DNA from: an uncultured Shinella sp.
GTDB lineage: Bacteria; Pseudomonadota; Alphaproteobacteria; Rhizobiales; Rhizobiaceae
Assembly (NCBI GenBank): GCA_946481465.1
Contig: CAMLOC010000020.1
Location: 1 to 14,817 of the forward strand
Direction of reading: 5' to 3'
Length of the DNA: 14,817 nucleotides
Part shown: positions 1 through 14,817 of the stretch, one piece after another
Numbering within the stretch: position 1 is the stretch's first letter
How the letters are laid out: every line of letters begins with the position of its first letter
Translations under genes and position numbers: made by a program
Notes under the pieces: model-generated
Database searches by the model: none
What the model was told of the DNA's origin: nothing
Seen by the model: only the letters and a program-made list of their open reading frames with translations

Positions 1-654
1 GAGCGTGCCGAGGCCGCCCGAGGTGTTGAAGGCTTCGTAGGTCACCCCGTCGAGCGAGAATTCCTCACGCTCCTCGAGGGCCGGAACCTCGATCAGCGCG
101 CTTTCGACGATCGCCTCGCAGGGCTCGATATATTCGTTGATGACGCCGTCCGTGCTCCAGGTGAGGTTATAGTTGAGCGCGTTGGACGGGTACTGCGGCA
201 GCGCGCCGACGCGCATGCGCACGCTTTCGAGCGAATCGAAACGGCTGGCGAGATCGTTGGCGACAATGGAAATGAAGCCGGGGGCGAGCCCGCACTGCGG
301 GATGAAGGCCGTCTTGGCGTTTTCTGCAATGCGCTTGACCTGGCGGGTGGATTCGACGTCTTCCGTGAGGTCGAGATAGTGCAGGCCGGCGTCCGCGGCA
401 GCTTCCGCGATGGCGACCGTCAGGTGATAGGGCGCGGCGGAGAGGACGGCGAACTTGCCGGCGAGCAGCGCGCGGAGTGCGGCACCGTCGGCAATGTCGA
501 CAACGGCGGTCGAGACGGCATCGTGGCGCTCGATGGCGGCACGCTGCTCGTCCGAACGGTCCGCGACGGTGACGCGGTAATCCCCGCTGTGAGCCAGCAT
601 GCGGGCGATGGTGGAGCCGATTTTGCCTGCGCCGATGACGACGATGTCCTTCAT
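1..654 (-). CDS. Saccharopine-dehydrogenase-like NAD(P) oxidoreductase, probably L-lysine 6-dehydrogenase (C-terminus cut by window edge)
   Basis: The reading frame is open from the ATG at 654 to the window edge, giving 218 residues of a protein whose family usually has about 370-390. Seen: an N-terminal Rossmann motif (MKDIVVIGAGKIG, glycines 8, 10 and 13), a CGLAPGF segment near residue 120 and a YEAFNTSGGLGTL segment at the visible end, all typical of the saccharopine dehydrogenase/lysine dehydrogenase fold. A good Shine-Dalgarno (GGAGGG) precedes the ATG. Known: L-lysine 6-dehydrogenases of this fold oxidise the epsilon-amino group of lysine to 2-aminoadipate 6-semialdehyde, and this activity has been described in Agrobacterium. 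Inferred: the divergent Lrp-type regulator and the downstream amaB, aminotransferase and hglS genes make lysine 6-dehydrogenase the best reading. A saccharopine-forming or saccharopine-cleaving enzyme is the alternative. The fold is secure; the substrate is moderately supported. Confidence 0.75.
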   Translation of the reverse strand, partial: MKDIVVIGAGKIGSTIARMLAHSGDYRVTVADRSDEQRAAIERHDAVSTAVVDIADGAALRALLAGKFAVLSAAPYHLTVAIAEAAADAGLHYLDLTEDVESTRQVKRIAENAKTAFIPQCGLAPGFISIVANDLASRFDSLESVRMRVGALPQYPSNALNYNLTWSTDGVINEYIEPCEAIVESALIEVPALEEREEFSLDGVTYEAFNTSGGLGTL

Positions 655-754
655 GTGATTTCCCTCCGGCATGAATTGATGCTGATATTTTGCGGGCAGA
701 GGGTGTCGATTTAAAGCGCCGTATCCGGCATAATACATCATCGATATCGGCAGA
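655..754. promoter_or_regulatory. Divergent control region between lysine-dehydrogenase-like gene and Lrp-type regulator
   Basis: These 100 nt separate two divergent starts and must hold both promoters. An 8-bp direct repeat, TCCGGCAT, occurs at 665-672 and 724-731, spaced 59 bp apart, close to a whole number of helical turns. AT-rich stretches lie between the copies and just downstream of the second. CATAAT at 729-734 could be a -10 for the regulator, but no convincing -35 is visible. Lrp/AsnC proteins often bind between themselves and a divergent target, so autoregulation plus control of the dehydrogenase is a reasonable inference. The exact site is not established. Confidence 0.35.
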
Positions 755-1207
755 ATGACGGTAAAAATGAGCATTTCGACGCTAGGCGCCAAGGATCGGG
801 AACTGCTCGCCATCCTCAGCGAGAACGCCCGCGAGCAGACCGCGACCATCGCCCGCAAACTGGGCCTGTCGCGCACGACCGTGCAGGCGAAGATCGACCG
901 GCTGGAGCGGGACGGGGTGATCGCCGGCTATGGCGTGAAACTGTCCGACGCCTACGAGAGCGGCATGGTGAAGGCGCATGTGCTGATCACCATCGCGCCG
1001 AAGACCTTGGCGCGCATCACGACGGAGCTGCACGCCATTTCGGCGGTGCGGACGCTGCATTCCGTCAGCGGCAGCTTCGACCTGATCGCCGTGGTCGAGG
1101 CCGCCTCGATCGCCGAACTCGACCACCTGATCGACCGCATCGGCGCCATCGACGGCGTGGAGCGCACGCTGTCGTCGATCATCCTGTCGACGCGGATCAG
1201 GCGGTAG
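755..1207 (+). CDS. Lrp/AsnC family transcriptional regulator
   Basis: The 150-residue product has the standard length and layout of Lrp/AsnC proteins. An N-terminal winged helix-turn-helix at about residues 10-60 includes TIARKLGLSRTTVQAKIDRL. The linker IAGYGVKLS is typical, and a C-terminal RAM/ligand-binding domain follows, with the family-like segment VSGSFDLIAVVE. Such proteins bind amino acids and control their catabolic or export genes. It is divergent from the lysine-dehydrogenase-like gene with a 100-nt gap, the common arrangement of a local regulator and its target, so lysine or a related amino acid is the likely effector. The ATG at 755 has no clear Shine-Dalgarno. An in-frame ATG at 767 would remove only four residues and cannot be excluded. 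The family is certain; ligand and target are inferred. Confidence 0.9.
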   Translation: MTVKMSISTLGAKDRELLAILSENAREQTATIARKLGLSRTTVQAKIDRLERDGVIAGYGVKLSDAYESGMVKAHVLITIAPKTLARITTELHAISAVRTLHSVSGSFDLIAVVEAASIAELDHLIDRIGAIDGVERTLSSIILSTRIRR

Positions 1208-1231
1208 GCGCTAGCGTTGAACCAAGGCTCC

Positions 1232-1329
1232 CCTTCGTCATCCTCGGGCTTGACCCGAGGATCCACGCCACGAACTCAGGGCGTGCCGCAAGGCTTGGAT
1301 CCTCGGGTCAAGCCCGAGGATGACGAAGG
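1232..1329. repeat. Intergenic inverted repeat with perfect 34-bp arms (Rhizobiales-type palindromic repeat)
   Basis: The arm at 1232-1265 is the exact reverse complement of 1296-1329, with a 30-nt centre. Each arm also contains its own small hairpin, CCTCGGG-CTTGA-CCCGAGG at 1242-1260 and its mirror at 1301-1319, so the element can be seen as two head-to-head copies of one palindromic unit. Units with a core resembling TCGGGCTTGACCCGA are dispersed between genes in many Rhizobiales genomes (from general knowledge, not checked here). It sits between the 3' ends of the convergent Lrp-type and dadA-like genes, where a very stable RNA hairpin could end transcription in both directions. No run of T follows either side, so an intrinsic terminator role is only a possibility. 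The whole gene-free stretch is 1208-1411, and nothing else is evident in it. Confidence 0.9.
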
Positions 1330-1411
1330 AGAGGGGTAATGACGGTCTACTACAAATCAGCGCCGGGTATGAGCCGTCGGCGCCTCCGGCAGCGAATGCT
1401 TTCGCGTGCCC

Positions 1412-2665
1412 TCACGCGATGAACCGCTCCGGCCGGTAGGGCCCGATATTGATCACCGTCCGCTCGCCCAGCATTTTTTCCGCCAGGACGCGGCCGGTGA
1501 TCGGCCCGAGCGTCATGCCGTGATGGGCGTGGCCGAAGGCGAACCAGAGGCCGGCGTGGCGCGGTGCCTTGCCGATGATCGGCATCATGTCGGGCGTGCA
1601 GGGGCGGCAGCCCATCCAGGGTTCCTCGTCGCGCCGTTCGGCAAGCGGGAAGAATTCGCGCGCCACCTTTTCTGCGCGGCGAAGCTGGACCGGGGTCTTG
1701 CGCGTATCGCGCCTGGCGAATTCGGCGCCGGTGGTCAGGCGAATGCCGCGCTGCATGGGCGCGAGGAAATAGCCTCGCTCGGCATCGAGCACCCAGTTGT
1801 TGAGGGTCGCGCCGTCTTCCGCGCCGTAGTGCATATGGTAGCCGCGCTTGACGGCGAGCGGGAAGCGGTAGCCGAGCTTGCGCGTCACCGTATCGGCCCA
1901 CGGCCCGAGCGCCACCACGACTTCCTTGCCTTCAAGCGGGCCTTCGGGCGTGGCGATGCGCCAGCCCTCGCCATCCAGCACATGCTCGATGGTTGCCGCA
2001 TCGCCCGATTTCAGTTCGCCGCCCAGCGACTGGAAATAGGCGAGGTAGCGTTTCAAGAGGTTCTGCGGATCGAGGATCGACCACGGATCGGTCCAGCGCA
2101 GGCCGCCGGTAAGTTCGGCGCGGATGGAAGGTTCGGCCGCCGCCACCTCCGCCGTCGTCAGCTTCTGGTGGTTGACGCCGAAATTGGCCGAAAGTTTTTC
2201 TGCATCCGCATAGGCCTTGTCGCGCTCCTTCTCAGTGCGAAAAACCTTCATCCAGCCGTCCTTGCGGATGAGGTCTTCCGCGCCGGAAGCGGCAATGAGG
2301 TCGGCGTGCTCGGAAATCGAGTTCTCGATGAGCGGCGCATAGAGATGGGCGATGCTCTGGTGCTGGCGGAAGCCGGAATGCCACCAGTAGCGGGCAAGGA
2401 ACGGGATGATGCCGGGGATCGCCGACGGGTGGTAATGCGCGTCGATCGTGTTGTTCAGCGCGTAGCGGAAGAGCGCGCCGAAATCGTGCGGGAAGCCGTA
2501 GGGGAAGACGCCCTCGCGCTGGATGAGGCCGGCATTGCCGTAGGAGGTCTCTTCCGCCGCCCCGCGCCGGTCGACGAGCACCACCGACTTGCCGCGCCGG
2601 AGAAGATGGATCGCGGTCGAAATGCCGACCACGCCCGCGCCGAGAACAATGACATCCGTCTTCAT
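1412..2665 (-). CDS. D-amino-acid dehydrogenase (DadA)-like FAD oxidoreductase
   Basis: The 417-residue protein matches the usual DadA length. Seen: an N-terminal FAD-binding dinucleotide fold (MKTDVIVLGAGVVG, glycines 9, 11 and 14) followed by the acidic ribose ligand in VVLVD. SYGNAGLI follows near residues 41-48. The C-terminal FAD/substrate segment contains CRPCTPDMMPIIG and FGHAHHGMTLGP. The family oxidises D-amino acids to 2-oxo acids and ammonia (or cyclic imines) at the membrane, passing electrons to quinones. The ATG at 2665 is preferred over an in-frame TTG at 2677, which has no Shine-Dalgarno. It lies 67 nt downstream of the gntR gene on the same strand, so co-transcription is likely. 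D-lysine, D-pipecolate-like or D-proline-type substrates would fit the neighbours, but sequence alone does not choose. The family is secure, the substrate open. Confidence 0.85.
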   Translation of the reverse strand: MKTDVIVLGAGVVGISTAIHLLRRGKSVVLVDRRGAAEETSYGNAGLIQREGVFPYGFPHDFGALFRYALNNTIDAHYHPSAIPGIIPFLARYWWHSGFRQHQSIAHLYAPLIENSISEHADLIAASGAEDLIRKDGWMKVFRTEKERDKAYADAEKLSANFGVNHQKLTTAEVAAAEPSIRAELTGGLRWTDPWSILDPQNLLKRYLAYFQSLGGELKSGDAATIEHVLDGEGWRIATPEGPLEGKEVVVALGPWADTVTRKLGYRFPLAVKRGYHMHYGAEDGATLNNWVLDAERGYFLAPMQRGIRLTTGAEFARRDTRKTPVQLRRAEKVAREFFPLAERRDEEPWMGCRPCTPDMMPIIGKAPRHAGLWFAFGHAHHGMTLGPITGRVLAEKMLGERTVINIGPYRPERFIA

Positions 2666-2732
2666 GTGCCGCCCCAAGGATCTTTCGTTTGCGCATCAAT
2701 GCATGCGGGCTGCCGGCAAGGCAAGGCGCCCG

Positions 2733-3428
2733 CTATTGGCCCGCCAGCCGCAGCAGGTTCTCGATCGCCGCCCGCTCGAAGCCGCCGATGCCCTCGGAAA
2801 TATCGGCCTTGATCGCCGCCGCCACGGCGTCCTCGTCGCGCTTGCGCAGCGCCTCGATGGCCTCCTGGTGGCGGTCGACGAAATAGAGCTGGGCGACATG
2901 CTCCATGGCGATGCCGAGGAAGGGGCCGAGCTGGAGCCAGACGCTCTCCACCATCGGCAGGATCACCTGCTCGGGATTGGCGGTGTAGAGCGTGCGATGG
3001 AATTCCTGGTTCAGCAGCAGGGCGTTCGCATTGTCCTTGCGGGCGATCGCCTCGTCCTGCGCCTTGTCGATCTCCTCCAGCCTGTCGATCCGGCGCTCCG
3101 TGATGTGCGGGACGGCCCGGCGGGCGGCGTGCTGCTCCAGCACGGAGCGCAGCGAGACGAGTTCGCTGAACCGGTCCGCGGTCATGCGCGGCACCATGAT
3201 GCGCCGGTTGTCGAGCACGCGCAGCGCGCCTTCCGACGAAAGGCGGCGCAGTGCCTCGCGCACCGGCGTCGGGCTACTCTCCATCGCTTCGGCGATGCCG
3301 CGGATCGTCAGCGATTCCCCCGGCCGGATCGAGCCGACCATGATCGCCTGGCGCAGGCGCCGATGCGCATATTCATGCGTCGTCATGCCGTCCGGCCGGT
3401 CAAGCGGCTCAAGCGCCAAATTGCCCAA
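2733..3428 (-). CDS. GntR family transcriptional regulator (FadR/FCD subfamily)
   Basis: The product is 231 residues from a TTG start. A GntR winged helix-turn-helix occupies about residues 20-80 and includes SLTIRGIAEAMESSPTPVRE and RRLSSEGAL. A helical FCD effector-binding domain follows to the end, with the conserved FHRTLYTAN (H144) and DRHQEAIEAL (H187) segments. The His often found near the FCD C-terminus (M..H) is not obvious; D209 lies in that region. A strong Shine-Dalgarno (GAGGAGG) sits about six nt before the TTG at 3428. The alternative ATG at 3386 removes 14 residues and has no clear ribosome site. The gene is divergent from the glutamine-synthetase-like operon and upstream of the dadA-like gene, so it most likely controls both through the 135-nt intergenic region. 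The effector is unknown. Confidence 0.87.
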   Translation of the reverse strand: MGNLALEPLDRPDGMTTHEYAHRRLRQAIMVGSIRPGESLTIRGIAEAMESSPTPVREALRRLSSEGALRVLDNRRIMVPRMTADRFSELVSLRSVLEQHAARRAVPHITERRIDRLEEIDKAQDEAIARKDNANALLLNQEFHRTLYTANPEQVILPMVESVWLQLGPFLGIAMEHVAQLYFVDRHQEAIEALRKRDEDAVAAAIKADISEGIGGFERAAIENLLRLAGQ

Positions 3429-3460
3429 TCCATCCCTCCTCAAAGGCTGCGACGTGCTAC

Positions 3461-3478
3461 CCTGTCCATTGTGACAGG
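3461..3478. promoter_or_regulatory. Perfect 6-bp inverted repeat, candidate operator upstream of the ligase operon
   Basis: CCTGTC at 3461-3466 and GACAGG at 3473-3478 are exact reverse complements around a 6-nt centre (CATTGT). The site lies just upstream of the -35 of the plus-strand promoter at 3489 and inside the 5' leader of the divergent gntR gene. It has the geometry of a dimeric repressor site and is far too short for a terminator. Binding by the GntR protein is a guess. Confidence 0.35.
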
Positions 3479-3488
3479 TTCTAGCAGC

Positions 3489-3517
3489 TTGACCCCCGAC
3501 AAGAAAGTGTGCATATT
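3489..3517 (+). promoter_or_regulatory. Sigma-70 type promoter for the glutamine-synthetase-like operon
   Basis: TTGACC at 3489-3494 matches five of six -35 consensus bases. A 17-nt spacer separates it from CATATT at 3512-3517, an acceptable -10. Transcription would start near 3524, about 40 nt before the ATG at 3564. It is the best promoter I can read in the window. It is a direct sequence match without experimental support. Confidence 0.6.
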
Positions 3518-3523
3518 TTGAAA

Positions 3524-3550
3524 ATGTGATCACAAAAATAATTATGTGAT
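3524..3550. promoter_or_regulatory. Candidate GntR operator: TGTGATCACA palindrome plus second half-site
   Basis: TGTGATCACA at 3525-3534 is a perfect 10-bp palindrome at the predicted transcription start. The heptamer ATGTGAT at 3524-3530 recurs at 3544-3550, exactly 20 bp on, placing both on the same face of the helix. A protein bound here would block the plus-strand promoter, which suits repression by the divergent GntR protein and relief by the pathway substrate. TGTGA/TCACA halves also resemble CRP sites, but the spacing is too short for a normal CRP site. Confidence 0.5.
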
Positions 3551-3563
3551 ACGGAAGGGAACC

Positions 3564-4913
3564 ATGACTCCGAACGACGATGCCAATTGGCTGATCAATG
3601 CCGACGGCGTGGAGAGCATCCAGGCCGTGGTCTGCGACCTGAACGGCATCCTGCGTGGCAAGCGCGTGCCCGTCGGGCAGGCGGAAAAGGTGCTGAAGGG
3701 CGGTATCCGCATGCCGCTGTCCATCGTGGGCGTGGACGTGTGGGGCGAGGATATCGTCGGCTCCAGCCATGTCTTCGCCTCGGGCGACATGGACGGCATC
3801 TGCAGCCCGACCGGCCGCGGCGCGCTGCCCGTCAACTGGACGCTGAAGCCCTCCGCCGTCGTGCCGCTCTGGCTGTTCAAGGAGGACGGCAACCCCTTTC
3901 TCGCCGATCCGCGCCAGGCGCTCGCCCATATCGTGCGGCAGTACCATGAACTCGGCCTGCGCCCCGTCGTCGCCTCGGAAATGGAATTCTACCTGATCGA
4001 CGCCGAGCCCGACCATGCCGAGCCGCCGATCTCGCCCTATACCGGCAAGCGGCTCGATTCCGACGCCATCCTCTCGATCGACGAACTCGACGATTTCGGC
4101 CAGTTCTTCTCCGACGTCTATGCGGAATGCGAGCGGCAGAACGTGCCAGCGGATTCGGCCGTCGCGGAAAACGGCATCGGCCAGTTCGAAATCAACCTGA
4201 TGCATTCCGACGACCCGTTGAAGGCCGCCGACGACGCGCTGTTCTTCAAGCGCATCATCAAGGGCGTGGCGCGCAAGCACGGTTTTGCCGCCACCTTCAT
4301 GGCAAAGCCCTACGGCATGCGTTCGGGCAGCGGCATGCACATGCATTTCAGCCTCATCGACGAGGACGGCAACAACGTCTTCGACAACGGCACGCCGGAA
4401 GGCTCCGACATCATGAAGCACGCCGTCGCGGGCCTGACGCGCGGCATGGCGGAATCGACGCTGCTCTTCGCGCCGCATTTCAACTCCTATCGCCGCCTGC
4501 GCCCGGACACCCATGCGCCGACCTCCGTCTCCTGGGGCTACGAGAACCGCACCGCCGCCATCCGCATTCCCGGCGGCAACAACAAGGCCCGGCGCATCGA
4601 GCACCGCGTCGCCGGCGCGGATGCCAATCCCTATCTCGTCATGGCCGGCATTCTCGGCGCCGCCCTCGTCGGCATCCGCAACAACTGGGAGCCGCCGGCG
4701 CCGGTCTCGGGCCGCGCCTATCTCTCGCAACTGCCGCGCATTCCCTCGGAATGGGGTTCGGCCGTCACCGCCTTCGAGAACGGCTCGATCGTCTCGGAAA
4801 TCTTCGATGCGGATCTCCGCTCCATGCTGATCGCCTGCAAGCGGCAGGAAATCGCCGGTTTCGCCGAACAGGTGACCGACTTCGAGTTCAGCGCCTACCT
4901 GGAAATCGTCTGA
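3564..4913 (+). CDS. Glutamine-synthetase-family ligase (gamma-glutamylamine synthetase / PuuA-like)
   Basis: The 449-residue product has the size of PuuA-type ligases. Seen in order: N-terminal beta-grasp region (VVCDLNGILRGKRVP), metal-binding SEMEFYL (E139, E141), AENGIGQFEINL (E202, E209), the MAKPYG...GSGMHMHFSL ATP/metal segment (H259), and the nucleotide/glutamate site with NSYRRLRP, ENRTAAIRIPG and RRIEHR (E346). The adenylylation loop of housekeeping GlnA was not found. The family uses ATP to join glutamate to ammonia or an amine; PuuA makes gamma-glutamylputrescine. The ATG at 3564 follows GGAAGGGA at good spacing. A GTG at 3546 in the same frame is less likely. The next gene overlaps by one base (TGATG), so a flavin oxidase probably acts on the glutamylated product, as in the Puu pathway. 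The amine substrate is not known; a lysine- or polyamine-derived amine is plausible. Confidence 0.85.
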   Translation: MTPNDDANWLINADGVESIQAVVCDLNGILRGKRVPVGQAEKVLKGGIRMPLSIVGVDVWGEDIVGSSHVFASGDMDGICSPTGRGALPVNWTLKPSAVVPLWLFKEDGNPFLADPRQALAHIVRQYHELGLRPVVASEMEFYLIDAEPDHAEPPISPYTGKRLDSDAILSIDELDDFGQFFSDVYAECERQNVPADSAVAENGIGQFEINLMHSDDPLKAADDALFFKRIIKGVARKHGFAATFMAKPYGMRSGSGMHMHFSLIDEDGNNVFDNGTPEGSDIMKHAVAGLTRGMAESTLLFAPHFNSYRRLRPDTHAPTSVSWGYENRTAAIRIPGGNNKARRIEHRVAGADANPYLVMAGILGAALVGIRNNWEPPAPVSGRAYLSQLPRIPSEWGSAVTAFENGSIVSEIFDADLRSMLIACKRQEIAGFAEQVTDFEFSAYLEIV

Positions 4914-6220
4914 TGGCCAACAACCAGTCTTATGCCGGCAACGGCGCCTATCCCGAAAGCTACTACGCCGCCTCCCGCAACATCATCCGCACCCCGAAGG
5001 TGCTGGAGGGCGCGGTCACGGCCGACGTCGCCGTTCTCGGCGCCGGCTATTCCGGCCTTTCCACCGCAATCCACCTTGCCGAGAAGGGCTACAAGGTCGT
5101 GATGGTCGAGGGCGCGGGCATCGGCTGGGGCGCCTCCGGCCGCAATGGCGGCCAGGTCGTCAACGGCCTCAATGCCAGCCTCGACACCATCAAGCGCCGC
5201 TACGGCGAGGAAGCCGGCGCCTTCGTCGGCAGCCTGGTGCAGGAGGGCGGCAAGATCATCCGCCGCCTGGTCTCGCAGTATGAGATCGATTGCGACCTGA
5301 AGAACGGCAACATCTATGCCGCCTACACGCCCGCCCACATGAAGGAGCTCGAGCAGAAGAAGGCGCTGTGGAAGAGCTACGGCATGGACGACCACCAGAT
5401 GCTCGACAAGGCGGCGATCCAGAAGCTGGTGAAGACCGACGCCTATATCGGCGGCATGCTGGACACGACCGGCGGCCACATGCACCCGCTCAACCTCACG
5501 CTCGGCGAGGCCAGGGCGCTGGAGACGCTCGGCGGCGTCATCTACGAACAGTCGCCCGTCATCCGCGTCGAGCACGAGGCGGAAAAGCCCGTCATCCATA
5601 CGGCCAAGGGCAGCGTGACGGCCAATGTCGCGGTCATCTGCGGCAATGCCTATCTCGGCCATGTCGTGCCGAAGCTCGTCTCGCGCGTCATGCCCGTTTC
5701 CACCCAGATGATTGCCACCGAACCGCTCGGCGCCGAGCGCGCCGACGCGCTGATCCCCAGCGACATGTGCGTGGAGGACGTGCGCTACATCCTCGATTAT
5801 TTCCGCCTGTCGGCCGACAAGCGCATGATCTTCGGCGGCGGCACCGTCTATGGCGGCACGGACCCGGCCGACGTGCGTGCGAAAATCCGCCCGAACCTTG
5901 AAAAGGTCTTCCCCTCGCTGAAGGGCGTGAAGATCGATTATGCCTGGAGCGGCAATTTTGCGCTTTCCTTCTCGCGCGTGCCGCAGATGGGCAAGATCGG
6001 CAGAAACACCTATTTCGCGCACGGCTACAGCGGCCACGGCGTCACCGGTTCGCATCTTTTCGGCCGCATCCTCAGCGAGGCGATCGACGGCGACCTTTCG
6101 CGCTTCAGCCAGTTCGAGAAGCTGCCCTGGATTCCCTTCCCGGGTGGACGCATGTTCCGCGCGCAATATTCCACCATCGGCTCCTGGTGGTATCAGTTCA
6201 AGGACGCCTTCGGCCTTTGA
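4913..6220 (+). CDS. FAD-dependent amine/imino-acid oxidase (PuuB/AmaA-like)
   Basis: The 435-residue protein belongs to the DAO-fold oxidoreductases that include gamma-glutamylputrescine oxidase PuuB and L-pipecolate oxidase AmaA. Seen: the N-terminal family segment YPESYYAAS (13-21), the FAD dinucleotide motif VLGAGYSGLS (GxGxxG at 43-48), GASGRNGGQVVNG (73-85), and the C-terminal FAD/substrate segment FAHGYSGHGVTGSHLFG. Its ATG overlaps the ligase stop codon (TGATG), indicating translational coupling. Coupling to a PuuA-like ligase favours oxidation of a gamma-glutamylated amine to an aldehyde plus ammonia and hydrogen peroxide. The neighbouring lysine operon instead favours an AmaA role, oxidising L-pipecolate to piperideine-6-carboxylate, which amaB would take on. 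Family certain, choice between the two roles open. An intrinsic terminator lies about 140 nt downstream. Confidence 0.87.
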   Translation: MANNQSYAGNGAYPESYYAASRNIIRTPKVLEGAVTADVAVLGAGYSGLSTAIHLAEKGYKVVMVEGAGIGWGASGRNGGQVVNGLNASLDTIKRRYGEEAGAFVGSLVQEGGKIIRRLVSQYEIDCDLKNGNIYAAYTPAHMKELEQKKALWKSYGMDDHQMLDKAAIQKLVKTDAYIGGMLDTTGGHMHPLNLTLGEARALETLGGVIYEQSPVIRVEHEAEKPVIHTAKGSVTANVAVICGNAYLGHVVPKLVSRVMPVSTQMIATEPLGAERADALIPSDMCVEDVRYILDYFRLSADKRMIFGGGTVYGGTDPADVRAKIRPNLEKVFPSLKGVKIDYAWSGNFALSFSRVPQMGKIGRNTYFAHGYSGHGVTGSHLFGRILSEAIDGDLSRFSQFEKLPWIPFPGGRMFRAQYSTIGSWWYQFKDAFGL

Positions 6221-6321
6221 GGCCCGCCGCCCGGAAGATCAGGAAGATCGCAATGGCTCCCACGGGGGTGCCACAACCAGCGCCCGTAATCGAAAGACCT
6301 TCCGGCGCCTGATATCGATGC

Positions 6322-6345
6322 CCCGCTCAAAAATGACGGGGTTTG
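6322..6345 (+). terminator. Weak hairpin upstream of the main terminator
   Basis: CCCCG at 6322-6326 pairs with CGGGG at 6338-6342. An inner TCA/TGA pairing across one bulged base closes an AAAA loop, giving about eight base pairs. Only TTT follows, so it could be the first of two tandem terminators or simply an intergenic hairpin. Confidence 0.3.
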
Positions 6346-6356
6346 CCAGCGGTCCG

Positions 6357-6385
6357 GGGGCCTCTTTCGAGGCCCCTTTTGTTTT
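6357..6385 (+). terminator. Rho-independent terminator of the ligase/flavin-oxidase operon
   Basis: GGGGCCTC at 6357-6364 pairs perfectly with GAGGCCCC at 6369-6376 around a TTTC loop. It is followed directly by TTTTGTTTT at 6377-6385. This is a textbook intrinsic terminator for plus-strand transcription. It lies 16 nt from the stop of the convergent aminotransferase gene, but in the minus direction no T run follows the stem, so it is mainly one-way. Confidence 0.85.
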
Positions 6386-6401
6386 GCCGGTTGTCCGTTG
6401 C

Positions 6402-7640
<1,239 letters not shown>

Positions 7641-9164
7641 TTACTCGATGTCGAAGGAGACGCCCTGCGCGAGCGGCAGAGCCTTCGAATAGTTCACCGT
7701 GTTGGTGGCGCGACGCATGTAAGCCTTCCAGGCGTCAGAGCCGCTCTCGCGGCCGCCACCGGTTTCCTTCTCGCCGCCGAACGCGCCGCCGATCTCGGCG
7801 CCCGAGGTGCCGATGTTGACGTTTGCGATGCCGCAATCCGAACCGTCGACCGACAGGAAGCGCTCGGCCTCCTGGACATTGAGCGTGAAGATCGACGAGG
7901 AGAGGCCGGCGGCCACTGCATTGTGATCGTCCAGCACGGCGTCGAAGTCGGAATATTTCATGACATAGAGGATCGGCGCGAAGGTCTCTTCGAGAACCGG
8001 ACCGGCCTGCTTCGGCATTTCGACGATGGCGGGCTTGACGTAGTAGGCGGTGTCCTTGCCGGCATCCGTGACGCGCTCGCCGCCGGTGACGGTGCCGCCT
8101 TCGGCCTTGGCGGCTTCCAGCGCCTTCTGCATGCCGTCGAAGGCCTGGCGGTCGACGAGCGGGCCGACCAGCGCCGAAGTTTCCAGCGGGTTGCCGACGG
8201 AAACGCTGGTGTATGCCTTCTTCAGGCGCGGCACGAGCTGGTCGTAGACGCTGTCATGCACGAAGAGGCGGCGCAGCGTCGTGCAGCGCTGGCCGGCGGT
8301 GCCCATGGCGCCGAAGGCGATGGCGCGCAGCGCCATGTCGAGATCGGCCGAGGGGCAGACGATGCCGGCATTGTTGCCGCCGAGCTCGAGGATCGAGCGG
8401 GCGAAACGCTTGGCGAGGCGCGGGCCGACTTCCTTGCCCATGCGGGTGGAGCCGGTAGCCGAGACGAGCGCGACCTTGCGGTTGTCAACAAGGGCTTCGC
8501 CGATCGTGCGGTCGCCGATGAGGACCTGGGAAAGGTTCGCCGGGGCATCGCCGAAGCGGGCGAGCGCCCGTTCGAAGATCGCCTGGCAGGCGAGCGCCGT
8601 CAGCGGGGTCTTTTCGGAGGGCTTCCAGACGATGGAGTTGCCGGCGACGAGCGCGAGCGCGGCGTTCCACGACCAGACGGCGACCGGGAAGTTGAAGGCC
8701 GAGATGATGCCGACGACGCCGAGCGGGTGCCAGGTCTCCATCATGCGGTGGCCGGGGCGCTCGGTGGCGATGGTGAGGCCGTAGAGCTGGCGGGAGAGAC
8801 CGACGGCGAAATCGCAGATGTCGATCATTTCCTGCACTTCGCCGAGGCCTTCGGAGGTGATCTTGCCGGCCTCGATGGAGACGAGGCGGCCGAGATCGGC
8901 CTTGGAGGCGCGCAGTTCCTCGCCGAGCAGGCGAACGAGCTCGCCGCGCTTGGGGGCGGGCACGAGGCGCCAGGCCTTGAAGGCGTCGTGGGCGGCGTCG
9001 ATGGCCTTGTCTGCCCCGGCGGCCGAGACGGTCTTCAGCCTAGCGACTTCCTCGCCGCTGACGGGGCTGTAGGAGGCCATGTCGCCGCCCTTCCACGCGC
9101 TGCTGGCGACGCCGAGCTTGTCGAGGAGGGCTGCGGTTTCCTGTTTCACGTCGACTTTCGTCAT
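7641..9164 (-). CDS. amaB: L-2-aminoadipate-6-semialdehyde / piperideine-6-carboxylate dehydrogenase (ALDH7 family)
   Basis: The 507-residue protein is an aldehyde dehydrogenase of the antiquitin (ALDH7) type. Seen: the oxyanion asparagine N158 in ISAFNFPVAVWSWN, NAD-binding K181 (VWKPSEKTPL), the general base E260 in LELGGNNAGIV and the catalytic cysteine C294 in GTAGQRCTTLRRLF. The VQEMIDICDFAVGLSR segment (110-125) and the Arg just after the Cys loop lie where ALDH7 enzymes hold the aminoadipate head group. It oxidises 2-aminoadipate 6-semialdehyde (in equilibrium with piperideine-6-carboxylate) to 2-aminoadipate with NAD+, in the cytoplasm. An AGGGAG ribosome site precedes the ATG. It lies 21 nt after the D-2-hydroxyglutarate-dehydrogenase-type gene and 6 nt before the aminotransferase. 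Substrate assignment is strong because hglS is in the same operon. Confidence 0.92.
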   Translation of the reverse strand: MTKVDVKQETAALLDKLGVASSAWKGGDMASYSPVSGEEVARLKTVSAAGADKAIDAAHDAFKAWRLVPAPKRGELVRLLGEELRASKADLGRLVSIEAGKITSEGLGEVQEMIDICDFAVGLSRQLYGLTIATERPGHRMMETWHPLGVVGIISAFNFPVAVWSWNAALALVAGNSIVWKPSEKTPLTALACQAIFERALARFGDAPANLSQVLIGDRTIGEALVDNRKVALVSATGSTRMGKEVGPRLAKRFARSILELGGNNAGIVCPSADLDMALRAIAFGAMGTAGQRCTTLRRLFVHDSVYDQLVPRLKKAYTSVSVGNPLETSALVGPLVDRQAFDGMQKALEAAKAEGGTVTGGERVTDAGKDTAYYVKPAIVEMPKQAGPVLEETFAPILYVMKYSDFDAVLDDHNAVAAGLSSSIFTLNVQEAERFLSVDGSDCGIANVNIGTSGAEIGGAFGGEKETGGGRESGSDAWKAYMRRATNTVNYSKALPLAQGVSFDIE

Positions 9165-9185
9165 GGGTGTCTCCCTGTCGGTTTT

Positions 9186-10604
9186 CTAGAATTCGATGGC
9201 GCCGAGCGGGCCCGGCGAGGTGATGGTCTTCAGCCCGGCCGCAAGGTCGCGGATCTTTTCCGGGGTGTATCTGTCGTAAAAGGCCTGGTTTTTGCGGCCG
9301 ATGGCGTGTTCCGCCGAAAAGCTGCCGCCGAACTGTTCGACCGCCACGGTGAAGACGAAGTCGCGCAGGTCCGCCTCGAAATCGGGATCGGCAAGCCGTG
9401 GATCGTCCTTCGCGACAACGAGGTTGAAGTGCACGCCGCCATCGCCGATATGGCCGAAATCGCAGATCGTCACATCCTCGAAGTGATCGGGCATCTCCGC
9501 CTTCATATGGGCGAGGAAGGGCATGATGTCACCTCGGCGGAAGGACAGATCGAAGGCGATCAATCGCCCGCTATGCTTCACGCCTTCCGAAAGCGCATGG
9601 CGCAGCGCCCAGATCTCGTGCGGCGGGCCGACGAAGGCGTCGGCGAGCGGCGCGTCCTCGCGCTCCCAGATCGCGGCCAGCACCTCTTCCAGCACCGCAT
9701 CGAGCGGCTGTTCGCCCTCGCGTGGCGGGGTCGAGCGGGAGATTTCGGCAAGGATGACGAAATCGGGCACCACGCCGCCCTGGAAAGGGTTGCGCAGCGA
9801 CGGCACATGGTCGAGCGCGGCGCTGACGGCATTGCCGGACATGCCCTCGAAAGCCGAGAGGTAGCCGCCGAGCGCGTCTTCCATTGCGACCAGGAGCGGG
9901 GCGACCTGCTCGGCGGAGGCAGGCACGAGGAGCGCGGTGGCCGATTGCTTTGGCGCCGGTTCCAGATTGAGGACGCATTCGGTGACGATGCCGAAGGCGC
10001 CCGATGTGCCGATGAAGAGCTGCTTCCAGTCGACGCCGGTATTGTTCTTGCGCAGGTCCGAGGAAAGGTCGAGCACGGTGCCGGCCTCGTCGGCGAGGAC
10101 GACGGTGAGCCCCAAAACGTTGCGGCGCACGTCGCCGTAGCGCAGGAAGCGCGAGCCGCCGGTATTCGTCGCGATCATGCCGCCGAGGCGCGGATCAGCG
10201 CCAAGGTCGATCGGGAAGAACAGGCCGCTGTCTTCCAGCCTGCCGTTGAGATCGGAAAGGCGCAGGCCCGCCCCGGCCTTCACCGAGCGGTTCACCCGGT
10301 CGAGGTCGAAGGGGGCGGTCAGGCGGTCGAGACTGAGCACGCCCTGACGGCCGCTCCCGTCGGGCGTCGAGCCGGAGACGAGGCCGGTATTGCCGGATTG
10401 CGGCACGAGGGCGATGGCGTTCCGCACGCAATAGGACACGATGGCGGAAACCTCGGCCGTGGTGGCCGGGCGGGCGACGAAGGCGGCGCGGCCCCTGTCG
10501 TAGCGCGCGCCGGTCTCGTAGGCGGCCATGTCGGCTTCTTCGGTGAGAAGACCCTTCTCGCCGGCAAGGCCCTTCAGCGCTTCGATATGGCGTGCCTCGA
10601 TCAT
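9186..10604 (-). CDS. FAD-linked oxidase, probable D-2-hydroxyglutarate dehydrogenase (VAO/PCMH fold)
   Basis: The 472-residue protein has the two-domain layout of D-2-hydroxyacid dehydrogenases. The N-terminal PCMH FAD domain shows VPQSGNTGLVSGSTPDGSG (68-86) and DLGADPRLGGMIATNTGGSR (133-152). The C-terminal domain shows the metal-site pattern FGHIGDGGVHFNLV (H385, H392) and SAEHAIGRK (E432). Human D2HGDH uses the same His/His/Glu set. The usual NPGK-like tail is replaced by TSPGPLGAIEF. The start is the ATG at 10604, 10 nt after the hglS stop, with a clear GGAGG. The frame is open further upstream but that would run into hglS. HglS makes D-2-hydroxyglutarate, so an adjacent enzyme oxidising it to 2-oxoglutarate is the natural reading. 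A D-lactate or glycolate oxidase activity is the alternative. The linked position is noteworthy. Confidence 0.85.
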   Translation of the reverse strand: MIEARHIEALKGLAGEKGLLTEEADMAAYETGARYDRGRAAFVARPATTAEVSAIVSYCVRNAIALVPQSGNTGLVSGSTPDGSGRQGVLSLDRLTAPFDLDRVNRSVKAGAGLRLSDLNGRLEDSGLFFPIDLGADPRLGGMIATNTGGSRFLRYGDVRRNVLGLTVVLADEAGTVLDLSSDLRKNNTGVDWKQLFIGTSGAFGIVTECVLNLEPAPKQSATALLVPASAEQVAPLLVAMEDALGGYLSAFEGMSGNAVSAALDHVPSLRNPFQGGVVPDFVILAEISRSTPPREGEQPLDAVLEEVLAAIWEREDAPLADAFVGPPHEIWALRHALSEGVKHSGRLIAFDLSFRRGDIMPFLAHMKAEMPDHFEDVTICDFGHIGDGGVHFNLVVAKDDPRLADPDFEADLRDFVFTVAVEQFGGSFSAEHAIGRKNQAFYDRYTPEKIRDLAAGLKTITSPGPLGAIEF

Positions 10605-10614
10605 GCGCCCTCCG

Positions 10615-12012
10615 TCACTCCGCAGCGGCAGCCATGTTGACGATGCCGAGGCACATTTCAAGCGATGCGCGCTGGATGGCGCCGTAGTGGGCGAATTCGT
10701 CAAGCACGGCGCTGCCGAGATCGCGCTCGAACATCACCTGGTTCGGGCTGGCGACGAAGTCCTGGGTTGCGTCGTCGCCGAGATTCGACTGGAAGATGCC
10801 CGCGGCGCTGACCGGCAGGAAATCCTCGTAGACGATCGGGTCGAAGCAGATGAGGCCGGCTTCGATCGCCGTTTCGAGATCGGCGTTGCGGCCGGTGGCG
10901 GCCCTGCCCTTCTCCGTCAGGGCGTAGGTGAAATAGCCGAGGCCCGCCTTGCGGATGCCATCCCAGTCGTCGGGGAAGGCCTTGAAGACCTCGGCGAGTG
11001 CGGCCTCGTATTCGGCGGCGTTGGAGCCGTCGGCGGCCGGGCGCACGCGGGTGCGCGTCTCGGCAAGCAGCCTGTCGTAGAGCGCGCGGCCCTTCGGCGT
11101 CAGTGCCACGCCGCGCTGCTCGATCTCGCCGAAGCGGGCCGTGTGGGAGCCTTCCTGCCAGGCGCCGTCGGCGCCGATGAAGGAGACGGCCTCTTCCAGC
11201 GCCTTGAACGAGGTCTGGCGCAGGAGGATCGGGCAGGCACGGGTCGGCGGGCCCTCGACGACGGCCTTGGGGGCGATGCCCTCTTGCGGCATCAGCGCCT
11301 GTACCTTGTCGATATCGAGCGTGCGCGGCGTCAGGTGGTTGATGTGCGGGCCCTTGAAGGAGACGACGTCGGCGATCAGCCGGTGGGCGTCGTGCAGGCG
11401 CTTGTACATGTCGGCGCTGACGATGGCCTGATCGTGCCAGCGGAAGGTTTCCAGCACTTCGGTGACGAAACGGGCGGCATCGGCGGCATCGAGGCCCCCG
11501 TCACGCTCGGCCTTCCCGACGAGCTTGACGGCCTCGTTCGTGAAGATCTTTCGCGCACCGAGCACGTCGGCGGCTTCCTGCCGCAGTGTCTCGTCGGCGA
11601 TGAGATCGAGGCGCAGCAGCGAGGTGAAAACGCGGAAGGGGTTGCGGTTGAGGCTTTCGGCGCCAACCGGACGGAAGGCGGTGGAATGCACGGGAACGCC
11701 CGCGGTGGAGAGATCGTAGTAGCCGACCGGATACATGCCCATGACGGCGAAGACGCGCCGCATCATGGAAAGCTCGTCCGGCGTGCCGAGGCGGATGGCG
11801 CCGTGGCGCTCCTCGGAGATGCGCTCCAGCGTGTCGGTCGCCTCGAGGCGTGCCTTGAGGGCGGGGTCGGCGGCGAGCGTCTCGTCATTCACCGCGGCGA
11901 CCAGCGCCATCAGCGTGCCGTAGGCCGGAACCTCCTCGCGATACATCGCGGACATGGCGGCAGAGAAATCCGAGCGGATCTTGTCCGCGCAAACATACGA
12001 ATTTGCTTTCAT
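10615..12012 (-). CDS. hglS: 2-oxoadipate dioxygenase/decarboxylase (D-2-hydroxyglutarate synthase, DUF1338/YdcJ family)
   Basis: The 465-residue protein matches HglS of Pseudomonas putida in size and key residues. HglS is an Fe(II)-dependent enzyme that uses oxygen to turn 2-oxoadipate into D-2-hydroxyglutarate and CO2. From the ATG at 12012 the sequence carries H70 and R74 (ERHGAIRLG), H226 (GPHINHLTP) and E296 (RFGEIEQRG). As I recall, the P. putida iron ligands are H70, H226 and E294 with R74 contacting substrate, so the first three fall at identical numbers. That supports this start over an in-frame ATG at 12027 (five residues longer); neither has a good ribosome site. EEVPAYGTL near residue 26 is another family segment. 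It is the first gene of the four-gene operon and divergent from lysR, an arrangement like that remembered for P. putida. Confidence 0.93.
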   Translation of the reverse strand: MKANSYVCADKIRSDFSAAMSAMYREEVPAYGTLMALVAAVNDETLAADPALKARLEATDTLERISEERHGAIRLGTPDELSMMRRVFAVMGMYPVGYYDLSTAGVPVHSTAFRPVGAESLNRNPFRVFTSLLRLDLIADETLRQEAADVLGARKIFTNEAVKLVGKAERDGGLDAADAARFVTEVLETFRWHDQAIVSADMYKRLHDAHRLIADVVSFKGPHINHLTPRTLDIDKVQALMPQEGIAPKAVVEGPPTRACPILLRQTSFKALEEAVSFIGADGAWQEGSHTARFGEIEQRGVALTPKGRALYDRLLAETRTRVRPAADGSNAAEYEAALAEVFKAFPDDWDGIRKAGLGYFTYALTEKGRAATGRNADLETAIEAGLICFDPIVYEDFLPVSAAGIFQSNLGDDATQDFVASPNQVMFERDLGSAVLDEFAHYGAIQRASLEMCLGIVNMAAAAE

Positions 12013-12061
12013 GGGAAGCGGTCTCATCCTACAAGGGTGGGAAGGCCCTGTTCATTCTCAA

Positions 12062-12082
12062 AACGGATCATAACCGATCGTT
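12062..12082. promoter_or_regulatory. Near-palindrome over the hglS -10 region, candidate LysR site
   Basis: In the 117-nt gap between hglS and lysR, AACG at 12062-12065 mirrors CGTT at 12079-12082. The inner GATC at 12066-12069 and 12076-12079 extends the symmetry with one base out of step. On the minus strand TATGAT (12072 to 12067) is a good -10 for hglS but has no recognisable -35 at 17 nt. That is typical of an activator-dependent promoter. Binding by the divergent LysR protein is inferred; other T-N11-A spacings exist nearby. Confidence 0.35.
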
Positions 12083-12129
12083 TTTCCAAGCGATTGCGAC
12101 CGTTCTGACTATGTTGATGCGAGGAAAGA

Positions 12130-13026
12130 ATGAAGCTCAGTCGAAGGCTGATCCCTGACGTCACCACGCTGCAGGCGTTCGAATGCGCCGCCCGCCATGG
12201 CAGCTTCACGCAGGCGGCCCACGAGCTCAACCTCACCCAGAGCGCCGTCAGCCGCCAGATCAAGGACCTCGAGGAACAGCTCGGCGTGCTGCTCTTCGAG
12301 CGCGTGCGCCAGCGCGTGGTGCTATCCGACGACGGCCGCCGCTTCCTGCCGGAAGTGCGCAAGCTCCTGCACCAGACGGAGGAGACCATGCTGCGCGCCA
12401 TGGCGTCGGCCTCCTCCGAGCACAGCCTCTCCATCGCCACGCTGCCGACCTTCGGCAGCCGCTGGCTGACGCCGCGCATTCCGGGCTTCCTTGCGGAAAA
12501 TCCCGGCACGATCATCAACATCGCCTCGCGCTCGGCGCCGTTCGATTTCGACGAGGAGAATTTCGACCTCGCGATCCACTACGGCCAGCCGGTCTGGGCG
12601 CGGGCGGCCTGCTCCTATCTGTGCAGCGAGGTCATCCTGCCCGCCGCGAGCCCGGAACTGGTGAAATCCTGGAACCTTGCCGAGCCGAAGGACCTGGAAA
12701 GGGCGCCGCTCCTGCATCTTGCGACCCGGCCGAAGCTCTGGGCGCAATGGTTCGAGCTGAACGGCGGTTCGGCCGATACCGCCTATCGCGGCCATCGGTT
12801 CGACCAGTTCTCCATGGTCATCGAGACGGCCGTCGCCGGGCTCGGCTTTGCGCTCCTGCCGCACTACCTGATCGAGCAGGAGCTGGCGAGCGGCCGGCTT
12901 GCCGTCGTCTTCGACCGGCCGATGGAGACGGAGAACAGCTACTATCTCGTCGTACCGGAAGGAAAGCTCGAAAACCCGCTGAGCCAGGCGTTTCGCGCCT
13001 GGATCTCCCGGCAGGTCCCGGCATAG
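12130..13026 (+). CDS. LysR family transcriptional regulator (GcvA-like), probable regulator of the hglS operon
   Basis: The 298-residue product is a standard-length LysR protein. The N-terminal helix-turn-helix spans about residues 12-65 and includes AFECAARHGSFTQAAHELN, TQSAVSRQIKDLE and LGVLLFERV. A periplasmic-binding-protein-like effector domain follows, with LSIATLPTFGSRWLTPRIPGF, FDLAIHYG and ETAVAGLGFALLPHYL typical of the GcvA group. A ribosome site AGGAAAG precedes the ATG. It is divergent from hglS across 117 nt. In P. putida a LysR gene (PP_5259, from memory) also lies between amaB and hglS. It therefore probably activates the lysine operon in response to a pathway intermediate such as 2-aminoadipate or 2-oxoadipate; the effector is a guess. 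The downstream flavin oxidase gene may be read from the same transcript or from its own promoter. Confidence 0.9.
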   Translation: MKLSRRLIPDVTTLQAFECAARHGSFTQAAHELNLTQSAVSRQIKDLEEQLGVLLFERVRQRVVLSDDGRRFLPEVRKLLHQTEETMLRAMASASSEHSLSIATLPTFGSRWLTPRIPGFLAENPGTIINIASRSAPFDFDEENFDLAIHYGQPVWARAACSYLCSEVILPAASPELVKSWNLAEPKDLERAPLLHLATRPKLWAQWFELNGGSADTAYRGHRFDQFSMVIETAVAGLGFALLPHYLIEQELASGRLAVVFDRPMETENSYYLVVPEGKLENPLSQAFRAWISRQVPA

Positions 13027-13148: not shown

Positions 13149-14432
13149 ATGCTCAACGATCCGCGCTCCCATGGCCTCTGGGAGATGACCGCTCCGCCCG
13201 CCCCCGAAACCGTGGCCTTTTCGGGCACAGCGGAGGCGGATGTCGTCATCGTCGGCGGCGGCTATACGGGGTTCTCGACCGCGCTCCACCTTGCCGAGCG
13301 CGGCACGCGGGTCATCCTGCTGGAAGCGGCGGAGATCGGCTATGGCGGTTCGGGCCGCAATGTCGGCCTCGTCAATGCCGGCATGTGGGTGATGCCGGAC
13401 GAACTGCCCGGCGTGCTCGGCGATCTCTATGGCAGCCGGTTGCTGGAGCTTCTCGGCAATGCGCCCCGCGCGGTGTTCGACATTGTGGAAAAGCACGCCA
13501 TCGATTGCGAGATCAATCCGGCGGGCACGCTGCATTGCGCGGTCGGAACCGCCGGCCTCGACGAACTGAAGCAGCGCGCGGAGCAATGGGCCCGCCGCGG
13601 CGCCCCGGTGCGCCTGCTGGATGCCGCCGAGACGGCGGCGAAGGTGGGCACGGAGGCCTATGCGGGCGCGCTTCTCGACATGCGCGCCGGCACGATCCAG
13701 CCGCTTGCCTATGCGCGCGGCCTTGCCCGCGCGGCGATTAAGGCGGGCGCGACGGTCTTCACGGTAAGCCCGGTGACAGGCGCGGAGCGGAACGGAAAAC
13801 GCTGGACGGTGAAGACCGCGCGCGGCGCCGTCACCGCGGACTGGGTGGTCGTCGCCACCAATGCCTATACGGTCGCGCCGTGGAACGAGGTGCGGGCCGA
13901 ACTCGTGCACCTGCCCTATTTCAACTTCGCCACCGTGCCGCTCTCGCCCGAGATGCAGGCGAAGATCCTGCCGGAGCGGCAGGGCGCCTGGGACACGAAG
14001 GAGGTGCTGTCCTCCTTCCGCTTCGACAGGCGCGGCCGGCTGGTCTTCGGCAGCGTCGGGGCGCTGCGCGGCGCGGGCACCGGCATCCACAAGGCCTGGG
14101 CGCGGCGTGCGCTGAAAAAGCTCTTCCCCGATATCGGCGACGTCGCCTTCGAGGCGGAATGGTACGGCAAGATCGGCATGACGACGGACAACCTGCCGCG
14201 CTTCCACCGCCTTGCCGAGAACGTCATCGGGTTTTCCGGCTACAATGGCCGCGGCATCGCGCCGGGCACCGTCTTCGGCCGCACATTGGCGGACCTCGTT
14301 TCCGGCGCGGTCACCGAGGGGGACCTGCCGCTGCCGGTGAGCGAGCCTGAGGCGCAGTCCTTCCGCACGATGCGTGAGGGCTATTACGAACTCGGCGCGC
14401 AGATCGCCCATTTCGCCGGCGCCCGCTTCTAG
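13149..14432 (+). CDS. FAD-dependent oxidoreductase, second AmaA/PuuB-like paralogue
   Basis: The 427-residue protein is a DAO-fold flavoprotein of the same superfamily as the product at 4913-6220. Seen: an N-terminal segment DPRSHGLWEMTAPPAP, the FAD motif VIVGGGYTGFS (GxGxxG at 36-41), YGGSGRNVGLVNAGMW (65-80) in place of the usual GASGRNGGQ, and the C-terminal FSGYNGRGIAPGTVFGR segment. Such enzymes oxidise secondary amines or imino acids with oxygen or a quinone. It follows lysR by 122 nt on the same strand, so it sits in the lysine-catabolic neighbourhood. It is an equal candidate for L-pipecolate oxidase, feeding piperideine-6-carboxylate to amaB. The NVGL substitution near the flavin suggests different substrate or oxidant use from its paralogue. 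Upstream ribosome signal is weak. Family secure; substrate unknown. Confidence 0.85.
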   Translation: MLNDPRSHGLWEMTAPPAPETVAFSGTAEADVVIVGGGYTGFSTALHLAERGTRVILLEAAEIGYGGSGRNVGLVNAGMWVMPDELPGVLGDLYGSRLLELLGNAPRAVFDIVEKHAIDCEINPAGTLHCAVGTAGLDELKQRAEQWARRGAPVRLLDAAETAAKVGTEAYAGALLDMRAGTIQPLAYARGLARAAIKAGATVFTVSPVTGAERNGKRWTVKTARGAVTADWVVVATNAYTVAPWNEVRAELVHLPYFNFATVPLSPEMQAKILPERQGAWDTKEVLSSFRFDRRGRLVFGSVGALRGAGTGIHKAWARRALKKLFPDIGDVAFEAEWYGKIGMTTDNLPRFHRLAENVIGFSGYNGRGIAPGTVFGRTLADLVSGAVTEGDLPLPVSEPEAQSFRTMREGYYELGAQIAHFAGARF

Positions 14433-14471: not shown

Positions 14472-14817
14472 TCAGAGGCGCAGGCCCGGGATGGCGAGGG
14501 GATTGTCGGACAGCGCGGCGCGGTCCGGCCGGTCGATCTTCGGCGTTCCGGTGAAGGCGTCGAAGAGATCGCGCACAAAGGCTTCCGGCAGATCCCGGGT
14601 GATCAGCACCAGCCGCGTGCGGCGGTCGGCCGGGTCGGGCCAGGCGGAAAGCCGCTCGGGCGGATGGAAGACGCTCTGCACGCCCTGCAGCACCAGCGGC
14701 CGCTCCGGTGTGTTGGCCATCAGCACGATGCCCTTCATGCGCAGCAGCTTTTCCCCATGCGCGGAGCGCAGGAGGTCGATGAACATCTCCAGCGCCATCG
14801 GGTCGATCGGCCGGTCG
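14472..14817 (-). CDS. CobW/COG0523-type GTPase, C-terminal part (N-terminus beyond window)
   Basis: The frame is open from the right window edge to the TGA at 14472, giving 115 residues of the C-terminal end of a larger protein. The segment GEKLLRMKGIVLMANTPERPLVLQGVQSVFHPP, then TRLVLITRDLPEAFVRDLFDAF, is characteristic of the CobW C-terminal domain. The visible Met at 14798 is internal, because the same frame continues upstream with DRPIDP. The full proteins are G3E-family GTPases of about 300-400 residues that act as metal chaperones or in cobalamin and zinc homeostasis. The GTPase motifs, CxCC metal site and substrate metal cannot be judged here. It is convergent with the flavin oxidase gene and has no evident link to lysine catabolism. 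Confidence 0.8.
   Translation of the reverse strand, partial: DRPIDPMALEMFIDLLRSAHGEKLLRMKGIVLMANTPERPLVLQGVQSVFHPPERLSAWPDPADRRTRLVLITRDLPEAFVRDLFDAFTGTPKIDRPDRAALSDNPLAIPGLRL

Follow-up and report, generated by a model that had tools for sequence, protein, structure and literature searches.

In the D-lysine route of Pseudomonas putida, 2-oxoadipate is converted to D-2-hydroxyglutarate by HglS and then to 2-oxoglutarate, and published fitness data from Sinorhizobium meliloti have been cited to argue that the role of HglS is conserved (both from part of PMC7286885). The same chemistry is predicted for the locus described here, an hglS operon in a stretch of 14,817 nucleotides (the window) from an uncultured Shinella sp. 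(contig CAMLOC010000020.1 of assembly GCA_946481465.1). Compared with P. putida, the window has a lysine 6-dehydrogenase-like (LysDH) entry from L-lysine, an AatB-type aminotransferase (AT), and a short flavoprotein within the operon in place of YdiJ. P. putida is assumed here to use AmaB, PP_4108, and YdiJ (PP_4493), the last two from separate loci, and its amaA, amaB, LysR gene, and hglS are presumably adjacent (PP_5257-PP_5260), which would make only partly right the description of the P. putida steps as spread over several loci given in an earlier annotation of the window from its letters alone (the sequence-only reading).

The S. meliloti hglS cluster (L088) has the same order of lysR / hglS-FAD oxidoreductase-aldehyde dehydrogenase-aminotransferase as the window, but contains no amaA or lysDH in the stretches examined (L038 and L088). 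Human D-2-hydroxyglutarate dehydrogenase (D2HGDH, PDB 6lpn) shares its fold and its metal, C1-carboxyl, and base residues with the short flavoprotein and differs in the pocket for the C5 carboxylate. The presumed L-lysine 6-dehydrogenase structure 3abi has the domains PF03435 and PF16653 in common with the window LysDH and is distant otherwise. The pathway chemistry and the role of HglS are already in print, and compact linkage in rhizobia does not amount to a novel type of system; less expected are the choices of an AatB-type AT and of a dehydrogenase that lacks the lysine at position 401 of the human enzyme. The locus would show how plant-associated bacteria package a lysine route that is free of glutaryl-CoA, and one operon with one neighboring regulator makes gene-by-gene testing easy.

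The hglS operon and its predicted pathway

Thirteen credible genes were found in the window, four of which form a tight operon on the minus strand, divergent from a LysR gene. The first gene is hglS (10615-12012), followed by the gene for the short flavoprotein (d2hg, 9186-10604), amaB (7641-9164), and the AT gene (6402-7634), with gaps of 10, 21, and 6 nt; these coordinates and gaps reproduce those of the sequence-only reading. HglS, a predicted 2-oxoadipate dioxygenase/decarboxylase (PF07063), scores 753.3 bits against the curated equivalog model NF049974 (cut-off 550) and 568.7 bits against the HglS structure PDB 6w1g, and its closest relatives are Shinella proteins (92% identity to S. yambaruensis and S. 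granuli). AmaB, a predicted piperideine-6-carboxylate (P6C) / 2-aminoadipate semialdehyde (AASA) dehydrogenase, scores 822.9 bits against the curated equivalog model NF050084 (cut-off 730) and has PDB 6dbb and 6rtr (Pcd) and ALDH7A1 as structural relatives. By sequence, HglS and AmaB are members of these two families.

The active-site residues H70, R74, H226, E296, V401, and S402 are all kept in the window HglS (window proteins carry window numbering, whereas D2HGDH residues such as Lys401 and Asn443 carry human numbering). H70, H226, and E296 are taken by us to be the HHE metal triad, R74 is the specificity arginine, and V401 and S402 correspond to the Val402/Ser403 loop. R74 is found in 88 of 89 HglS rows and the other five residues in all 89. 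The one deviating row is that of Mycoplana dimorpha (L011), where HGAIW replaces HGAIR and Arg74 becomes Trp, either a sequencing error or a sign of an altered substrate. The HHE triad and Arg74 are linked to 2-oxoadipate, and the Val402/Ser403 loop is described, in part of the HglS report (PMC7286885).

The cluster is probably a lysine/pipecolate catabolic module, judged from its sequence, and its route very likely runs from lysine or pipecolate via P6C, 2-aminoadipate, 2-oxoadipate, and D-2-hydroxyglutarate to 2-oxoglutarate. LysDH would deaminate L-lysine at the epsilon position to yield P6C, and an AmaA-like oxidase would oxidize L-pipecolate to the same compound, which would be in equilibrium with AASA. 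AmaB would then oxidize P6C/AASA to 2-aminoadipate, the AT would convert this to 2-oxoadipate, and HglS would, with O2 and Fe(II), produce D-2-hydroxyglutarate and CO2. In the last step, the short flavoprotein, or YdiJ in other loci, would form 2-oxoglutarate, and glutaryl-CoA would be bypassed. The LysR protein is predicted to control the operon and an Lrp protein to control lysDH. We infer the substrates of the AT, the dehydrogenase, LysDH, and AmaA, and all regulation, from family membership and conserved context. The proposal that one neighborhood holds a complete set of candidates for the steps from lysine to 2-oxoglutarate, made in the sequence-only reading, was borne out: each step has a candidate, and the set is supported by a conserved operon order, by amaA and LysDH homologues inside related operons, by an exchange of the dehydrogenase, and by the co-occurrence of HglS and LysDH.

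Gene order was compared over the 80 closest HglS loci out of 200 confirmed relatives, a sample that represents Rhizobiaceae and their near relatives rather than bacteria in general. Each stretch extended up to 10 kb to either side of hglS (less than 21 kb in total for L025, L029, L048, L050, and L076), and a gene was scored as present at an identity of at least 50%. The comparison, which the sequence-only reading had proposed, revealed an operon order conserved over the 80 loci and linkage beyond chance, with amaB present in 78, lysR in 76, and the AT gene in 72; 35 loci have both lysDH and lrp. The layout lysR/hglS-d2hg-amaB-AT was found in 27 loci, and 17 add amaA to its left and lysDH/lrp in the vicinity, which gives the gene set of the window. 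The layout lysR/hglS-amaB-AT-ydiJ occurs with lysDH/lrp in 16 loci and without lysDH in four, and the remaining 16 loci show nine rarer layouts.

Linkage was also followed in 151 evenly drawn Rhizobiaceae genomes, in which contig ends may hide some of it. The cut-offs were an identity of at least 64% for LysDH, an E value of at most 1e-100 for the short D2HGDH-like enzyme, and at most 1e-200 for YdiJ, with proximity defined as lying within 12 kb. AmaB was found in 89 of the genomes, including 42 of the 46 with HglS; in 40 of these 46, amaB lies no more than 12 kb from hglS. The compact layout is therefore not special to the window, a reservation to be held against its interpretation.

The same four-gene operon with its LysR gene also occurs on the Ti plasmid pTiCFBP4996 of Agrobacterium leguminum (L090, NZ_CP120216.1 296596-313975), with identities to the window of 88% for hglS, 91% for d2hg, 95% for amaB, and 94% for the AT gene. 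Its neighbors are ABC transporter, aminotransferase, and lysA-like genes. In the HglS tree, which was built from 89 rows by a quick method and leaves 34 of 86 inner branches open, this HglS stands beside that of Shinella, which suggests lateral transfer; a tie to a lysine-derived opine is conceivable.

Candidate entry points from lysine and pipecolate

The lysDH gene lies on the minus strand at 1-654, divergent from the gene for an Lrp/AsnC regulator (755-1207, plus strand, PF01037 and PF13404). The sequence-only reading had placed a lysine 6-dehydrogenase-like gene at 1-654; the candidate exists, but the window holds merely its N-terminal 218 residues, and a full-length relative of 366 residues with the same start is found in L001. 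The domains of the predicted LysDH are a saccharopine-dehydrogenase-like NAD(P) domain (PF03435) and a C-terminal PF16653 domain. The L001 protein scores 75.9 bits against PDB 3abi from Pyrococcus horikoshii over residues 4-286. The P. horikoshii protein, PH1688, is presumably a characterized LysDH; the PDB lists it as "Putative uncharacterized protein PH1688". Among the best 120 of 7999 scored relatives, one with 82% identity (P0072) is named L-lysine dehydrogenase, and the remaining names given refer to proteins of saccharopine-dehydrogenase or NAD(P)H-binding type. All 35 loci with lysDH also have lrp. The best NCBIfam model for the Lrp protein is the Lrp-type LysM, at 81.7 bits and far below its cut-off of 180.

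A closer association is seen in genome G112 (L085), in which the operon begins with a LysDH homologue of 40% identity, in the order lysDH-AT-amaB-hglS and divergent from lysR; the AT of this operon is only 49% identical to that of the window. Among the 151 genomes, 46 have HglS and 45 have LysDH, with both in 32, HglS only in 14, LysDH only in 13, and neither in 92 (Fisher p 6e-12, kinship not corrected for). In three of the 14 genomes with HglS only (G015, G112, and G118), a LysDH homologue is present at 40-42% identity. Besides the homologue in the G112 operon, second LysDH-like genes of 43-44% identity were observed in G131 and G032, each in addition to a close one in the same genome.

The second candidate entry point is an amaA-like gene at 13149-14432 on the plus strand, a predicted L-pipecolate oxidase. 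Genes 65-68% identical to it are found inside the hglS operon of G032, G026, G082, and G103 (L081-L084), and two of these that were scanned reach 460.8 and 456.4 bits on the AmaA model NF050086. From this context, the protein encoded at 13149-14432 may be expected to work like AmaA. Pipecolate-oxidase-like flavoproteins had been placed by the sequence-only reading within 1-12012; flavoproteins are indeed encoded there, but the best AmaA match among the three flavoproteins tested, at 472.4 bits, lies outside that range. The product of 4913-6220 was rejected as a pipecolate oxidase, with 201.7 bits on the same model, and that of 1412-2665 scores 46.3 bits.

A number of findings speak against the proposed entry points. 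LysDH has no NCBIfam equivalog match above cut-off, and the homologue in the L085 operon matches no NCBIfam family. The window lysDH is cut by the window edge and parted from the operon by a block of genes (1412-6220) without a known lysine link. Of the 32 genomes that have both lysDH and hglS, eight have them within 12 kb of each other, a number that contig ends may have lowered; in the other 24, lysDH is farther away or on a different contig. LysDH occurs without HglS in the 13 genomes noted above. The score of 472.4 bits for the AmaA-like protein is below the cut-off of 600.

Part of this evidence would fit an operon whose main role is the use of pipecolate or 2-aminoadipate from plants (or of an opine-like conjugate), L-lysine being a minor substrate and lysDH an independent neighbor. 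No lysDH was seen in 45 of the 80 stretches, while hglS and mostly the operon remain; amaA, not lysDH, is within the operon in four genomes; and the Ti plasmid carries its operon copy by ABC transporter genes. Such an arrangement is unlikely, as 32 of the 46 genomes with HglS also have LysDH and a LysDH homologue is located inside the L085 operon. The lysine and pipecolate readings are not exclusive, because both entries give the same intermediate, and the preferred interpretation remains a module for lysine and pipecolate.

The dehydrogenase and the aminotransferase

The short FAD-dependent flavoprotein (PF01565 and PF02913) has human D2HGDH (6lpn, 189.2 bits) and 3pm9 (188.2 bits) as its nearest PDB entries, and D-lactate dehydrogenases (D-LDH) rank lower. 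A Foldseek search with a moderate AlphaFold model (pLDDT 75.1, pTM 0.69) agrees in placing 3pm9 and human D2HGDH ahead of D-LDH. The model is weak near the active site, with residues 431-436 below 50, and its geometry of the C5 pocket was therefore dropped as support. In an alignment that comprises the window and 49 loci (50 rows), the metal ligands His434, His441, and Glu475 of human D2HGDH, together with Arg386 and the base His476, are matched in every row by H385, H392, E432, R335, and H433, and the equivalent of Asn443 is kept.

The C5 pocket differs from that of the human enzyme. Thr390 is replaced by Ser in 49 of the 50 rows (Pro in one), Tyr432 by Phe, and Lys401 by Ala350 in all 50 orthologues. 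Loss of Lys401 abolished the activity of the human enzyme, and D-LDH and GlcD have a small residue at this position, according to part of the D2HGDH report (PMC7801405). The alanine is thus real evidence against a canonical D2HGDH. Lys343, His336, and Arg357 are each invariant in the 50 rows, but these are mere candidates, and no compensating basic residue is claimed. The short flavoprotein is accordingly not considered a member of the human-type family, and it is its context that points to a D2HGDH-like function.

The dehydrogenase slot is occupied by the short enzyme in 49 of the 80 loci and by YdiJ in 20, with both in none and neither within reach in 11, the last a point against the pathway as drawn. 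YdiJ is located downstream of the AT gene in its 20 loci, and the single YdiJ that was scanned scores 1468.5 bits (cut-off 1350). Two further findings limit the weight of this exchange. On the HglS tree, with the loci that have neither enzyme set aside, the switch between d2hg and ydiJ needs just two changes, so that the pattern represents about two natural replacements and not 69 independent events; exclusivity was rejected as independent evidence per genome. In addition, exclusion does not hold genome-wide: in G014, G060, G078, and G095 the short enzyme is encoded beside hglS, and a separate contig yields a YdiJ match (below cut-off in G060).

The short enzyme was found in 21 of the 151 genomes, in 20 of them on the same strand as hglS at a distance of 39-69 nt (distances in other loci were measured by match coordinates); the 21st copy is 50% identical and belongs to a genome without an HglS match. 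YdiJ was found in 14 genomes, 11 over the cut-off, and within 12 kb of hglS in two (G050, and G103 below cut-off). In a third layout, that of G103, hglS and amaA flank a gene for a YdiJ-like protein that scores 1141.3 bits, below the cut-off. Judged by its place in the motif, two residues after His441, Asn443 of human D2HGDH corresponds to an Arg in the scanned YdiJ; the intermediate alignment is gapped at this point. This suggests that D2HGDH-like enzymes bind the C5 carboxylate in differing ways.

The lack of Lys401, at a position that is small in D-LDH and GlcD as well (part of PMC7801405), would agree with a short flavoprotein that acts on another D-2-hydroxyacid while D-2-hydroxyglutarate is oxidized by an enzyme encoded elsewhere, for which the distant YdiJ matches of G014, G060, G078, and G095 would be available. 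This is quite improbable given the retained Arg386, His434, His441, Asn443, Glu475, and His476, the rank of the nearest structures, the 20 of 21 copies beside hglS, and the replacement of the short enzyme by YdiJ in other loci, and the Arg of YdiJ at the Asn443 position makes the C5 pocket seem variable among such enzymes. A D2HGDH with a different substrate pocket is the favored assignment. No report of a dehydrogenase lacking Lys401 was found in searches of open-access papers, judged mostly by title and the start of the abstract. D-2-hydroxyglutarate is harmful, and D-2-hydroxyglutarate dehydrogenases serve as biosensors. As a separate observation, a 498-nt "FAD-binding protein" is the sole annotation between hglS and the aldehyde dehydrogenase gene on a plasmid of Paracoccus sp. 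MA (L089, 8386-8883), perhaps a remnant or truncated dehydrogenase.

The AT is a class I aminotransferase. PDB 6f35, named "Aspartate aminotransferase B", shares 80.4% identity with it and 98.8% with the AT of the S. meliloti hglS operon (L088). By sequence, the AT of the window operon is orthologous to S. meliloti AatB. Its gene directly follows amaB in 70 of the 80 loci, with a median gap of 19 nt, and this context suggests that the enzyme acts on 2-aminoadipate to form 2-oxoadipate. An S. meliloti AatB is reported, in part of PMC7268258, to belong to the pyruvate transaminases with a preference for ornithine, putrescine, and agmatine; the identification of that AatB with the hglS-operon AT rests on the name. 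The word "lysine" is absent from the main text of PMC7268258, and no link between AatB and 2-aminoadipate was found in titles and abstract starts of the open-access literature, most papers not having been examined in full.

The name of 6f35, the substrate preference in PMC7268258 (as given in part of it), and the absence of the AT from eight of the 80 loci would suit a general aspartate/aromatic aminotransferase that is co-expressed with the operon while another enzyme transaminates 2-aminoadipate, but this is likewise improbable in view of the constant position after amaB and an activity that would fill exactly the step between AmaB and HglS. If the 2-aminoadipate function is correct, AatB of S. 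meliloti would gain a likely physiological role. The chances are about even for the joint claim that Rhizobiaceae AatB is a dedicated 2-aminoadipate aminotransferase of lysine catabolism and that the short flavoprotein represents a separate class of D2HGDH, which needs no canonical lysine to recognize the C5 carboxylate and can be exchanged for YdiJ, a much longer protein.

Predicted regulation and flanking genes

The LysR-type regulator (12130-13026, plus strand) is GcvA-like and scores 274.3 bits against NF008352, below the cut-off of 288. The intergenic region between lysR and hglS (12013-12129, assigned to the minus strand) contains short stretches conserved over 77 aligned upstream sequences, the window included, which possibly represent a LysR site and a promoter. 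A consensus scan upstream of hglS identified no sigma-70 promoter, and no RNA elements were found at gathering thresholds. On the far side of the amaA-like gene, the end of a CobW-like gene is encoded on the minus strand (14472-14816).

The block between lrp and the operon comprises genes for a DadA-like flavoprotein (1412-2665, minus), GntR (2733-3386, minus), a glutamine-synthetase-like protein (3546-4913, plus), and a PuuB-like flavoprotein (4913-6220, plus), none of which meets an NCBIfam cut-off. It was rejected as a core part of the system: 14 of the 80 stretches contain a close relative of one or more of these genes. The four genes travel as a block, located beyond lysDH in several Shinella and left of amaA, on the other side of the cluster, in L007. 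The segment starting with lysDH (window 1-6357) is inverted relative to L001 and L003, and in L002 the orientation to the operon seen in the window is shared by the gntR-gs-puuB part alone. One inversion breakpoint falls no later than 6357 and probably past 6229, by a terminator-like hairpin (6356-6377), and the other beyond the start of the window. Between lrp and dadA, positions 1228-1333 form a strong palindrome with 42-nt arms that are 95% complementary and separated by 22 nt. It resembles a dispersed palindromic element of a type that we take to be common in Rhizobiales.

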